A DNA stretch of 64,000 nt from Acinetobacter sp. A2 (lineage in GTDB: Bacteria; Pseudomonadota; Gammaproteobacteria; Pseudomonadales; Moraxellaceae), in the NCBI RefSeq assembly GCF_012371325.1, contig NZ_JAAZQX010000001.1, positions 127,700 through 191,699 of the forward strand, written 5' to 3'. A model generated the notes under the pieces. It had not been told where the DNA came from, did not search any database, and saw nothing but the letters and a program-made list of their open reading frames with translations. Below, piece by piece: positions 28,680 to 32,117 of this stretch. The position numbers and the translations under genes were made by a program. Positions within the stretch are counted from its first letter, which is position 1. Every line of letters starts with the position of its first letter.

Positions 28680-29171
28680 TTATTTCGCAGGCTCTTCAGC
28701 TTTTACACCTTTTTGATAAAGCGTGTAAATGTAGATCGGAATATCCAAATCTTCTAAGTGTTTGTAGATCAGTGGACGTACATCTTCCCAATCTAAACCG
28801 CCTACACCTGTTGCAAGACGTGGTAATGCCAAGCTTTCAATTTTCTCTTCTTCAATCAACTGTTTTAAGTTTTTCAAAGTACGGTTTACGTATTCTGTTG
28901 ATGCTTTACCTGGTTTTGAACCGTTGTCATAAGCGGCTTCCTGAGTCATCAGGTTTACAATGCGTTGACCTTCAGCATTAACCCAAGTCCATTGCTCGCC
29001 CGCTTTCGGGTGGTAAATATGGCAATAGTTACGGAAGTCTTTATACAATGCAGGCCAGTGCTCGCGCAGACTTAAAGCCAAACCTGTAGCAAAGTTATCG
29101 TTAGGGGCAACACCGTGAGCAATTGCACGTGCTTCGCTCAGTAAAATATCTCCAGATACTTCATAAATCAT
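28680..29171 (-). CDS. Macro-domain (ADP-ribose-binding) protein
   Basis: This 163-residue protein consists of a single macro domain. The opening VSGDILLSEARAIAHGVAPNDNFATGLALSLREHWP corresponds to the ADP-ribose-binding loop 1. LPRLATGVGGLDWEDVRPLI is the second binding loop of the Poa1p/DarG-like group. Such proteins remove ADP-ribose or its 1''-phosphate. No DarT-like ADP-ribosyltransferase is next to it, so it looks like an orphan hydrolase rather than an antitoxin. Confidence 0.82.
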   Translation of the reverse strand: MIYEVSGDILLSEARAIAHGVAPNDNFATGLALSLREHWPALYKDFRNYCHIYHPKAGEQWTWVNAEGQRIVNLMTQEAAYDNGSKPGKASTEYVNRTLKNLKQLIEEEKIESLALPRLATGVGGLDWEDVRPLIYKHLEDLDIPIYIYTLYQKGVKAEEPAK

Positions 29172-29614
29172 AGATTTGACTCCTGTTTTTAATGGTCTTG
29201 TTTAACTGATCTTCTATATTCATATTAGCCAATCATTGCCGTTTTTCTAGTGGATTTTATAACTACTAAGTCTTTGCAAAGTAATAAAATTTTTTAGAAT
29301 TTCGTGCTATAATTGTATGGGTAAAGCAGCTGAATATTCTTTAAAATAGCTTTCAAAAATAACCGTTAGAAAAATCCAGTAAAACTGCTTTTAGTAAGTT
29401 TTTCACCCTTATTTTTATCTTAGCACTATTTAGGGTAAATCGCTTGTAAATTGTACAAAAAAGCGTATGATCGGCTGCCCAATTTGTGTGGAAGGGTGAA
29501 GGAAGATTAACCATATTTTGCAGATATTATCGGCTTGAATTTTACGCCAACACCTCCATTTATATAGAGCAGGCATACTGCTCATTTCAATGATCAACTG
29601 AAAGGAACAGCATC
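29172..29614 (+). promoter_or_regulatory. 443-nt gap upstream of the small basic protein gene
   Basis: There is no gene here. TGCTATAAT (29305-29313) is a good extended -10 hexamer on the plus strand, though no matching -35 is visible. If used, the small-protein mRNA would have a leader of about 300 nt. Another weak candidate, TATGAT at 29466-29471, lacks proper spacing to a -35. Confidence 0.35.
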
Positions 29615-29806
29615 ATGGCAAAGAAAAAACAGCCAGAACTTATTCAGCATAACTTTGTGGCAAAGCACATGCATGAGGTCAACAAAAGTCAGGTTTTTGT
29701 AGACCGTAAGAAAAATGCCAAACGAGGCTATAGCAAACACAAACAAGGGCGATATTCCGATGATTATCGCCCTTGTTGTTTTTGGGATGTATTGCGTGCT
29801 GCTTGA
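29615..29806 (+). CDS. Small basic protein with a terminator inside its frame (ArfA-like arrangement)
   Basis: This 63-residue lysine-rich protein starts MAKKKQPELIQHNFVAKHMH. AAAGGA lies 8 nt before the ATG, which supports translation. The core NKSQVFVDRKKNAKRGYSKH resembles small uncharacterised proteins of Pseudomonas and Acinetobacter (possibly the family called DUF7230) and loosely recalls the basic C-terminal half of ArfA. A strong intrinsic-terminator hairpin begins at codon 43, so transcripts may end near codon 56-57 without a stop codon. The residues beyond are hydrophobic (CCFWDVLRAA). Function is not established; ArfA-like ribosome rescue is a hypothesis. Confidence 0.65.
   Translation: MAKKKQPELIQHNFVAKHMHEVNKSQVFVDRKKNAKRGYSKHKQGRYSDDYRPCCFWDVLRAA
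29742..29783. terminator. Intrinsic terminator within the small basic gene
   Basis: AACAAGGGCGATA (29742-29754) and TATCGCCCTTGTT (29765-29777) form a perfect 13-bp stem with a 10-nt loop, followed on the plus strand by GTTTTT. All of it precedes the stop codon at 29804-29806. The minus-strand tail (TTGTTTGTG) is weaker, but it could also end ptsP transcripts, whose stop lies 43 nt away. Confidence 0.8.
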
Positions 29807-29819
29807 GCTTTAGCAATGT

Positions 29820-32117
29820 TTATGGCGCTACGATGCGTGTTGCCAGTTTCACCATATCGCCCAAGCCATGGGTTTTAAAATAATATTCAAGCAAACTTTT
29901 TACCATAAGTGGGTTATTCATTTTTAAGGCTTGTTCTAGTAGATTTTGTGCATCACTCATTGGTACATGACAAATCGCTTTACGCACCCGCAGAATATTA
30001 CTTGAACTCATCGACAGGGTATTAAAGCCCATAGCCATCAAGAGCACCGCAGACAGCGGGTCTCCCGCCATTTCACCACAGACACTCACTGGCTTATCAT
30101 ATTTATGACATTCTTTTACCAAGCGGGTTAAGGCGCGTAGTACTGCGGGGTGAAAGTGTGAATAGACGTTGGCCACGCGCGGATTGTTACGGTCAACTGC
30201 CAATAAATATTGGGTTAAATCGTTTGATCCCACCGAGAAGAAATCCACCAACGGGGCAAATTCATCAATTTGTAGCAGTACACTCGGCACTTCTACCATA
30301 ATGCCAATTTTAGGCTTGTTAATTTTAACCTGTTCTTCTTCCTGTACCGCTTGCCAGTCACGATCGAGCAAATATAAGGCTTCTTCTACCTCGCTGACAC
30401 TGGTAATCATAGGCAGTAAAATATGCAGATTATTCAGACCAATGCTGGCTTTGAGCATGGCGCGAATTTGCGAAGAAAAAATTTCAGGGTGATCCAGTGT
30501 GAAGCGAATTCCACGCCAGCCTAAGGCTGAGTTTTCTTCCTCAATCGAGAAGTATGGCAAGTCCTTGTCAGCACCAATATCCAGCGTACGCATCACCACC
30601 GGTTTATTGGCAAAATGGCTAAGCTGTTGGCGGTAAATGGCACGTTGTTCTTCTTCACCTGGGAAGCGATCACGCAGCATGAACGGAATTTCAGAACGGT
30701 ATAAACCGACCCCTTTAGCGCCACGTTGCACGCCACGTACAACATCAATCATCAAGCCTGTATTGACGTACAATTTTACCGCAACGCCGTCAGGGGTAAT
30801 CGCGTCTTTGGTTTCATATTGCTTCAGGTCTTTGGCAATTTGCTCTTCTTCTTTTTGAATCTCTTTATAGCGTGTGCGCATACGTCGTGGCGGGTTGATG
30901 AAGACCCGGCCTTGGTGCGCATCTACAATCATTTCTACATCGTCTAGACTGTTGATTGGCAGCTCAGTCACACCCACTACAGTTGGAATGCCGAGGGCAC
31001 GTGCCACAATCACCATGTGTGAGTTCATCGCCCCTTCGGTGGTGACAATCGCTGCAATTTTATCGACAGGCAGTTCCACCAAAGCTGCGGTGGAAATTTC
31101 TTCGCCAATTAAAATGCTTTCATCGGTCAGTTCACGGTGACTGGCATCGGCTTCTTGCAAAGAGGCTAAAATACGACGGCCTAAATCTTTCAGATCAGAC
31201 ACACGCTCACGTAAATAGTCATCTTCCATTTGCGAAAATAAGGCAATGTGATTGTCAATCACAATACGCACCGCACCTTGTGCCCAGTTCCCTTCGCGAA
31301 TCAGTTCTTTAATTTCGGCAGGTAGGGCATTTTCATCCAACATGCGCAGGAATACGCTAAACAGTGCACGTTCCTCCGCCATTAAGGCATCCTGCATTTT
31401 GTCATCGAGCGCCTGAATTTCCTGACGTACTGTATCGAGTGCGTTGTCCAGTAATGTCAGTTCTTCGCTAATGTCATCGGCTTCACGGTCTGGCACAGCA
31501 GCCAAGTCCGCAGGAGGATACAAAATGACCGCACGACCTAAAGCAATCCCGCCTGAACCCGAAACCCCCTGAAAGGTTTTGTAGGCAGGCAGGTTGTTCG
31601 GTTTGCGGAATACATCAATATTGCCCACGGCATGCGCATGTGCAATCACGCCTGAGAGCTGGGCGCAGAGCGTCACTAAAAAGGACTCTGCCGCTTCAGA
31701 AAAGTCTTGTTTGTCCTTGTTTTGCACCACAAGAACCCCCATTACTTTACGACGGTACATGACTGGTACGCCAAGGAAGGAGTTATAAATTTCCTCGCCT
31801 GTTTCGGCTAAATACATGAAGCGTTCATGTTTAGGCGCATCGTCTAGGTTGACGATTTCTTCACGCTGTCCAACCAGTCCGACTAGACCTTCGCTGGTAT
31901 GTAAAGATACATGTCCTACAGATTCAGGGTTTAAACCTTTTGAAGCCATGAGGAGGTAGCGCTGATTACGTTCATCCAACAGGTAAATCGAGCAGACATC
32001 CACATGCATGGCTTCTGCGACCTGATTCACCATAATGTCGAGTGATTCATGCAAACTGGTGGACGCATTAATTTCTTGCACAATGCGTCTAAGGGTATCC
32101 AGTTGCATGTTTGACAT
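29820..32117 (-). CDS. ptsP: Nitrogen-PTS enzyme I (PEP-protein phosphotransferase with GAF domain)
   Basis: This 765-residue EI-Ntr would take phosphate from PEP and pass it to NPr in the regulatory nitrogen PTS. A GAF domain (about residues 1-170) is followed by the enzyme I N domain, the swivelling domain with the phosphorylated histidine in NSHMVIVARALG, and the PEP-binding barrel with PFMLRDRFPGEEEQ, SVGSNDLTQY and VCGEMAGDP. It lies downstream of rppH, as in most gammaproteobacteria. Confidence 0.96.
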   Translation of the reverse strand: MSNMQLDTLRRIVQEINASTSLHESLDIMVNQVAEAMHVDVCSIYLLDERNQRYLLMASKGLNPESVGHVSLHTSEGLVGLVGQREEIVNLDDAPKHERFMYLAETGEEIYNSFLGVPVMYRRKVMGVLVVQNKDKQDFSEAAESFLVTLCAQLSGVIAHAHAVGNIDVFRKPNNLPAYKTFQGVSGSGGIALGRAVILYPPADLAAVPDREADDISEELTLLDNALDTVRQEIQALDDKMQDALMAEERALFSVFLRMLDENALPAEIKELIREGNWAQGAVRIVIDNHIALFSQMEDDYLRERVSDLKDLGRRILASLQEADASHRELTDESILIGEEISTAALVELPVDKIAAIVTTEGAMNSHMVIVARALGIPTVVGVTELPINSLDDVEMIVDAHQGRVFINPPRRMRTRYKEIQKEEEQIAKDLKQYETKDAITPDGVAVKLYVNTGLMIDVVRGVQRGAKGVGLYRSEIPFMLRDRFPGEEEQRAIYRQQLSHFANKPVVMRTLDIGADKDLPYFSIEEENSALGWRGIRFTLDHPEIFSSQIRAMLKASIGLNNLHILLPMITSVSEVEEALYLLDRDWQAVQEEEQVKINKPKIGIMVEVPSVLLQIDEFAPLVDFFSVGSNDLTQYLLAVDRNNPRVANVYSHFHPAVLRALTRLVKECHKYDKPVSVCGEMAGDPLSAVLLMAMGFNTLSMSSSNILRVRKAICHVPMSDAQNLLEQALKMNNPLMVKSLLEYYFKTHGLGDMVKLATRIVAP

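Follow-up and report, generated by a model that had tools for sequence, protein, structure and literature searches.

A 63-codon gene of Acinetobacter sp. A2 encodes a protein of the DUF7230 family that is likely to be made from a non-stop mRNA and to act, most probably, as a separate ribosome rescue factor under the control of tmRNA. The non-stop design of the gene, in which a hairpin lies inside the reading frame close behind a conserved Lys-His pair, is well supported by the comparisons below. The rescue activity is inferred, without expression, tmRNA or rescue data, and the mRNA ends and the control by tmRNA are likewise inferred. The window, that is, the whole stretch of 64,000 nucleotides that was analysed, contains the gene next to ptsP, and the features of the locus are listed in Table 1.

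Table 1. Features of the DUF7230 locus, with positions in the window and the basis for each assignment.
Feature	Position	Strand	Basis and remarks
DUF7230 gene	29615..29806	+	ORF, 63 codons plus TGA; Pfam PF23876, E 2.3e-16, residues 11-50
Shine-Dalgarno core AGGA	29603..29606	+	From sequence; 8 nt 5' of ATG
ATG start codon of DUF7230 gene	29615	+	From sequence
TGA stop codon of DUF7230 gene	29804..29806	+	From sequence; 3' of the putative terminator
Conserved core, codons 13-42	29651..29740	+	N13, V15-A16-K17, N23, F28, D30, basic stretch to K41-H42
In-ORF hairpin	29742..29777	+	Stem 29742-29754 / 29765-29777, loop 29755-29764; fold, covariation
U run	29779..29783	+	Sequence; 3' end of non-stop mRNA inferred nearby, at about codon 56
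Tail codons 3' of hairpin	29784..29803	+	Inferred from terminator position to be missing from most mRNAs
ptsP, convergent neighbour	29820..32117	-	NCBIfam NF008283, 783.6 bits, cut-off 583
Promoter-like site TTGTAA-16-TATGAT (tentative)	29444..29471	+	Consensus scan, 9/12 matches

The product is small (63 residues) and basic, and it matches DUF7230 with 60.1 bits against a gathering score of 27. Pfam describes the function of this family as unknown. In a Pfam search at E <= 10, DUF7230 was the only family found, with no match to ArfA (PF03889), and no NCBIfam family was matched. The nearest named loci, those of A. towneri, encode a protein identical to the present one over residues 1-57 (as in strain DSM 14962) and carry the same hairpin stem. 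Over the 31 codons that lead up to and include the Lys-His pair (KH), 65 distinct Acinetobacter sequences gave an uncorrected pN of 0.071 and a pS of 0.644, a ratio of 0.11. Considering the DUF7230 score and this ratio, the ORF is a real gene, and the core of its protein is under purifying selection. The residues N, VAK, N, F, D and K-H are each conserved in at least 91% of 144 unique family members (K 97% and H 91% for the pair preceding the truncation point), and these near-invariant columns, together with alignments A2 and A3, were the basis for the core limits in Table 1. Structure prediction was of low confidence (mean pLDDT 61.2, pTM 0.19) and placed a helix at residues 14-25. The good ribosome site claimed by the first-pass annotation was found as an AGGA core. 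The promoter-like site is no evidence by itself, since the consensus scan of the region returned four such sites compared with 3.4 expected by chance.

The same annotation, made from the sequence alone, had described a perfect 13-bp hairpin and a T run occupying codons 43-56 of the gene, and this description held, the stem enclosing a loop of 10 nt. Folding of the RNA from 29730 to 29800 yielded -27.5 kcal/mol, compared with -14.28 kcal/mol (sd 2.33) in 200 dinucleotide shuffles, none of which was as good (z -5.67). A generic terminator scan gave no site at this hairpin; its rule takes loops of 3-8 nt. The arrangement known from BrfA, a stem and a T run within a coding region, is thus present in this gene as a structure, and termination itself is inferred.

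Hairpin conservation was assessed in a sample of 177 loci with a DUF7230 ORF, in which some genomes occur twice; two loci (L109 and L215) were left out of this assessment. The Acinetobacter set (n=69) joined 68 loci of named Acinetobacter to the present gene (L029), and a further set came from a second gammaproteobacterial family, here called f169. Using a region anchored on the profile, which opens six codons 5' of the end of the profile match, and a stem score threshold of >=10, we detected a stem in 67 of the 69 Acinetobacter loci, starting 0-13 nt into the region and lying wholly 5' of the stop codon. It was also detected in 66 of 70 f169 loci, starting 4-37 nt into the region (52 wholly 5' of the stop codon and 14 across it), and in four of seven other loci. 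Scores below 10 were obtained for L099, L100, L128, L135 and L177; of these, L128 and L135 nevertheless reach folding energies of -29.1 and -20.3 kcal/mol. The hairpins of f169 and of the small clades are unrelated in sequence to those of Acinetobacter and occupy the same place in the gene.

For comparison with controls, a fixed region was used, made up of the final 110 nt of the ORF and a further 30 nt. Stems were present there in 98/100 Acinetobacter loci (some genomes twice), 62/70 f169 loci and 4/7 others, compared with 28/236, 1/35 and 3/11 control ORFs, respectively, from the same loci, and in all 33 real arfA genes taken as a positive control. The control ORFs are open frames of >= 600 nt, unverified as genes, and their counts were back-calculated from printed fractions. 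A control based on energy alone was dropped as too lax, the threshold of -15 kcal/mol being passed as well by 40% of the controls in Acinetobacter and 51% of those in f169, and it was replaced by stem scoring. An in-ORF hairpin near the conserved KH is a trait of the family, found in Acinetobacter, f169 and two small clades. The conservation of the hairpin supports the earlier claim that transcription stopping there gives an mRNA without a stop codon, with the mRNA ends themselves inferred.

Some members of the family depart from this layout. No hairpin was found in L104, L105, L108, L183 and L214. L183 is a second, short copy in G408, one of some f169 genomes with two DUF7230 genes (double hits were also obtained for G389 and G438), and its expression may not involve the non-stop switch. 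The other four come from other lineages and could represent a stop-codon-bearing form of the DUF7230 family.

Selection on the RNA was examined in a gapless alignment of 46 distinct Acinetobacter sequences, with 500 shuffles that ignore relatedness. In total, 95.2% of 598 cells were paired, and five pairs had changed on both sides, a number reached in 3 of the 500 shuffles. The covariation score was 0.198, compared with 0.090 (sd 0.009) in the shuffles, none of which scored as high, and it was at most 0.063 when the arms were slid. The number of further pair types was unexceptional (12 versus 10.6; 90/500 shuffles as high), and the pair of columns 4-35 was unpaired in 14 of the 46 sequences.

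The commonest arms, in 31 of 68 loci, are GGG-CGA with CGC-CCT (G R ... R P), and 19 loci have GGG-AGA with CTC-CCT (G R ... L P). The silent change of CGA to AGA in one arm is therefore paired with an amino-acid change (Arg to Leu) in the other. In one further locus, GAG occurs with TCT, so that G>E and P>S come together and the pair is kept. Moreover, in the 12 hairpin codons pS is halved (0.33 versus 0.64 in the core) and pN doubled (0.14 versus 0.07). The arms of the Acinetobacter hairpin covary, including by amino-acid changes that keep the pairing, and in the arms the RNA outranks the protein. In an arm-swap comparison, f169 arms paired at 0.966 with their own partner and at 0.735 with foreign arms at best register (62 distinct sequences), compared with 0.941 and 0.857 in Acinetobacter; 89% of f169 arm pairs and 18% of those of Acinetobacter beat 95% of foreign partners. 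The contrast is small in Acinetobacter because its arms are alike. Outward-anchored figures were depressed by misregister, and the best-register version was used instead.

A possible objection is that the hairpin is merely the terminator of the convergent ptsP gene, into which a small ORF reads by accident. In favour of this explanation, 65 of the 68 named Acinetobacter loci have a convergent ORF as their nearest long one downstream, and the A-rich 5' flank of the hairpin would supply a U tract for ptsP. Of 30 Acinetobacter genomes lacking DUF7230 that were searched, 29 had a true ptsP locus, and the 3' side of ptsP was inspected in all 29. Three of them (L236, L238 and L239) carry, after ptsP and between A and T runs, a hairpin with GGGCGA/TCGCCC arms.

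Several observations speak against this explanation. The other 26 gene-less ptsP 3' ends have mostly different hairpins or none obvious. Frame 0 stays open for 13 codons past KH in all 68 loci, versus 56 and 22 for the other two frames. The arm pair GGGCGA/TCGCCC is not a repeated element of these loci, since all 30 of its occurrences across 411,157 bp from the named loci lie within the gene; the window contains it once. The closest long ORF on the downstream side runs in the same direction in 14 loci, which removes the need for a convergent terminator there, and a stem scoring >=10 is kept in 11 of them, with scores from 11.5 to 25.5 (L048, L102, L106, L107, L114, L120, L124, L129, L133, L134 and L136; the exceptions are L099, L100 and L128). 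Finally, f169 and the small clades have their unrelated hairpins at the same position in the gene. We therefore regard an accidental overlap as very improbable, and the check for the hairpin in homologues that the first-pass annotation had proposed, which found it at the same place in nearly all Acinetobacter and f169 loci, disfavours the ptsP-terminator-only reading. Since L236, L238 and L239 keep the same arms without the gene, it remains possible that the Acinetobacter hairpin also doubles as, or derives from, the ptsP terminator.

Regarding the gene-less loci themselves, the hairpin of L236, L238 and L239 (position 1914) adjoins a different convergent ORF and might be a relic of a lost gene or a shared older terminator. 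A look by eye at 14 of the 29 gene-less ptsP loci and at the 3' side of ptsP in the other 15, which was not systematic, revealed no replacement small gene of the DUF7230 kind.

Another explanation is that the protein works at full length, with the hairpin serving as a regulatory element that is translated and that stabilises the mRNA, for instance, or gives rise to a small RNA. Its support comes from E. coli arfA, in whose 3' part an arfA-derived small RNA (yrdG) is annotated. Against it, the residues 3' of the hairpin vary in sequence and length, with 15-28 codons between KH and the stop codon in 68 loci, and purifying selection is evident in the core (pN/pS as given above). We consider this explanation very unlikely too.

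The unread tail had also been described as hydrophobic, and this was true only in a loose sense. With the tail taken to start at the middle of the hairpin loop, the Kyte-Doolittle value in 67 Acinetobacter loci was +0.30 for the tail versus -1.53 for the core, and the other two frames of the same DNA reached +1.77 and +1.16; in 52 f169 loci, the tail had +0.27 and the other frames +0.18 and -0.10. The tail in Acinetobacter is not hydrophobic beyond what base composition gives, being less so than the other frames, and tail hydrophobicity as a selected feature is unsupported there. Set against the hydrophobic, destabilising tail that ArfA has beyond its hairpin, the result is mixed, the tail being more hydrophobic than the core, less so than the other frames in Acinetobacter and slightly more so than them in f169. 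In the present gene, the tail includes D58 and R61.

The shape of the hairpins points to two truncation devices. In Acinetobacter, at least five T follow within 8 nt of the GC core in all 68 named loci, as in an intrinsic terminator, and L106 and L107 resemble them in the T run after the stem. The f169 hairpins have a 5' arm with a median of 23 nt, and 11 of 66 have at least four T in the next 8 nt. Descriptions of the arfA stem loop present it either as a terminator or as a target of RNase III (PMC8012679), and the f169 hairpin is closer to that stem loop, whereas the Acinetobacter form resembles an intrinsic terminator. Inferring from shape, Acinetobacter and G210/G327 would use an intrinsic terminator, and f169 and G209/G326 a long hairpin of the RNase III type.

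This layout is shared with known rescue factors. ArfA of E. coli and its f170 homologues are likewise small and basic, with a hairpin in the reading frame shortly after the basic tail in 33/33 arfA genes, and E. coli arfA has a convergent neighbour, mscL, as the DUF7230 gene has ptsP. BrfA (YqkK) of Bacillus subtilis also has a Rho-independent terminator in its coding region, a non-stop mRNA and a Lys-His motif (PMC6881298). Non-stop mRNAs are the source of both ArfA and BrfA, and the two proteins build up if trans-translation fails (PMC8012679, PMC6881298). The Lys-His pair common to the two contacts 16S rRNA (PMC6881298), and the C-terminal part of ArfA, in which nearly half of the residues are basic, sits in the mRNA channel (PMC5378476). 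Thus, the claim of an ArfA-like non-stop design is supported as regards the layout, and the protein itself is DUF7230, not ArfA.

Membership in the ArfA family was ruled out, as PF03889 matched neither the protein nor anything in 99 Acinetobacter genomes. The DPLFRxRVE segment of ArfA (YhdL) is absent from DUF7230, and so is the KGKG(SY) motif of the ArfA tail that enters the mRNA channel; alignment A2 shows KRGYSKH or YxRKxKH instead. The YxRKxKH tail of f169-type members resembles SYQRKAKH of ArfA. When the whole-family profile was compared with ArfA, a local match of 12 columns had a probability of 15% and a P of 0.0018, with one of 300 column shuffles as good and a score of 18.5, versus 13.7 for reversed ArfA; over the whole length, the comparison was not significant (global P 0.18). 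The f169-type subset (with L102 and L103) matched ArfA over 13 columns with an hhalign P of 3.9e-5, a value that lacks a shuffle control and comes from a subset picked after the whole-family result. The Acinetobacter-type subset (with L106 and L107) gave no significant match (P 0.075). The likeness to ArfA therefore amounts to one short motif without full-length similarity, and whether the two families share ancestry is undecided.

The other known rescue factors differ in further respects. BrfA is reported in a subset of Bacillaceae (PMC6881298), unlike the carriers of DUF7230. BrfA chains are present in the PDB, and the A2 profile had no match among PDB chains at E <= 10, no direct alignment with BrfA having been made. 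ArfT of Francisella is, like DUF7230, a short protein of gammaproteobacteria without ArfA and ArfB (PMC6299226); it has 40 aa and a KGKGS-like stretch, and no in-ORF hairpin was noted for it. Given that ArfT is one member of a broad family (PMC6514570), a possible overlap of DUF7230 with this wider family cannot be excluded. ArfB (YaeJ) and PrfH rescue non-stop ribosomes without tmRNA, the role proposed here for DUF7230 as well, yet they carry their own GGQ domain, none of which was detected in the 63-aa DUF7230 protein by Pfam or NCBIfam.

DUF7230 was detected in 60/99 Acinetobacter genomes (60/97 of good quality), being missing from 39/99 (37/97), and in 68/81 f169 genomes, as well as in 10/274 genomes of the class and 3/397 of the phylum, both of the latter counts including the present genome. 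The ArfA profile search gave no hit in the 99 Acinetobacter or the 81 f169 genomes, and the three genomes of the class with ArfA (3/274) do not overlap with the ten DUF7230 carriers. ArfB was not found over the cut-off in any of the 99 Acinetobacter genomes. In f169, ArfB exceeded the cut-off in 13/81 genomes, 11 of the 68 with DUF7230 and two of the 13 without it; ArfB is no rarer among the carriers there, and as 11 of the 13 ArfB genomes also carry DUF7230, the two are not mutually exclusive. In a survey of 2,704 Gammaproteobacteria, ssrA was found in 2,588, arfB in 2,027 and arfA in 699 (PMC11633108). The same survey did not detect RqcH in Proteobacteria and states that the members studied so far depend on trans-translation or on an Arf factor (PMC11633108).

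The 39 Acinetobacter genomes without DUF7230 also lack ArfA and over-cut-off ArfB; they may rely on trans-translation as the sole rescue system or possess another unrecognised factor. In A. baumannii AB5075, smpB was not essential in the input pool and was essential in spleen, liver and kidney (PMC12604733, Table 1). If AB5075 lacks DUF7230, which has not been established, another backup exists.

The weak ArfB matches inspected in Acinetobacter lie mainly in frames of some 350-400 residues, the length to be expected of RF1 and RF2. A few frames of about 200 residues have a partial release-factor-like match of 36-40 bits (L139 in G073, and G044, G051 and G079); that of G073 has an internal stop. 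These shorter frames, noted in some Acinetobacter, are perhaps of the PrfH type.

In the mechanism that we propose, the DUF7230 protein would consist of an N-terminal segment (with a helix predicted at low confidence), a basic stretch ending in KH and then the truncation. An in-ORF terminator or an RNase III-type hairpin would strip the stop codon from the message, both the mRNA ends and the enzyme being inferred, and ribosomes would stall at the 3' end of the resulting non-stop mRNA. By analogy with arfA and brfA, the product of about 56 residues would be tagged and destroyed as long as trans-translation works, and it would be released untagged and accumulate once tmRNA-SmpB is overwhelmed. 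The freed protein would then probably bind the A site of non-stop ribosomes, with its basic tail ending in KH in the empty mRNA channel, and bring in a release factor that frees the peptide, in the manner of ArfA and BrfA. These last steps are inferred. The suggestion in the first-pass annotation of a tmRNA backup, or of another product controlled by trans-translation, is supported in this sense, tmRNA dependence and rescue activity being inferred.

It could be argued that only the non-stop switch is real and that DUF7230, controlled by trans-translation, has another job on or near the ribosome, such as in hibernation, as a nuclease cofactor or as a stress regulator. Indeed, the hairpin evidence speaks to expression rather than activity, there is no established full-length homology to ArfA, and the PDB search returned no solved relative. 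However, rescue is the role of ArfA and BrfA, two well-described families with the same layout. In addition, the DUF7230 protein combines small size and basic character with a conserved KH ahead of the truncation point, and its carriers are mostly without ArfA and ArfB. We thus consider this alternative unlikely and prefer the rescue factor reading. Points that count against rescue are the members without a hairpin, the 39/99 Acinetobacter genomes without the gene and the restriction of the ArfA similarity to one short motif.

A bolder reading, towards which we incline by a narrow margin, is that DUF7230 constitutes an unrecognised family of rescue factors that recruit release factors, independent of ArfA or remotely related to it, with two lineage-specific truncation devices and a role as a backup to tmRNA where ArfA and ArfB are mostly missing. 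The authors of the BrfA study expected further unidentified systems (PMC6881298). In the open-access literature searched, no paper contained the term DUF7230, and no title or opening of an abstract presented the family as a rescue factor; most subscription papers were outside the search. A rescue factor encoded by a non-stop mRNA is of a known kind, and what appears new is the DUF7230 family with its two truncation devices, the wider ArfT family members (PMC6514570) not having been compared.

If the rescue reading is true, it would assign a role to a Pfam family whose function is unknown and explain how many Acinetobacter species and most f169 genomes, without ArfA or ArfB, could survive when trans-translation is lost. 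It would also mean that a further protein family has kept, or re-evolved, the non-stop, self-sensing mode of expression. Inhibitors of trans-translation would then meet a backup in the carriers, and DUF7230 would be essential in ssrA or smpB mutants.

Elsewhere in the window, the minus-strand gene at 28680-29171 encodes a Macro-domain protein (Pfam Macro, 31.7 bits). Its product resembles the macro domain of the DarG antitoxin with 81.6 bits, far under the NCBIfam cut-off of 250.
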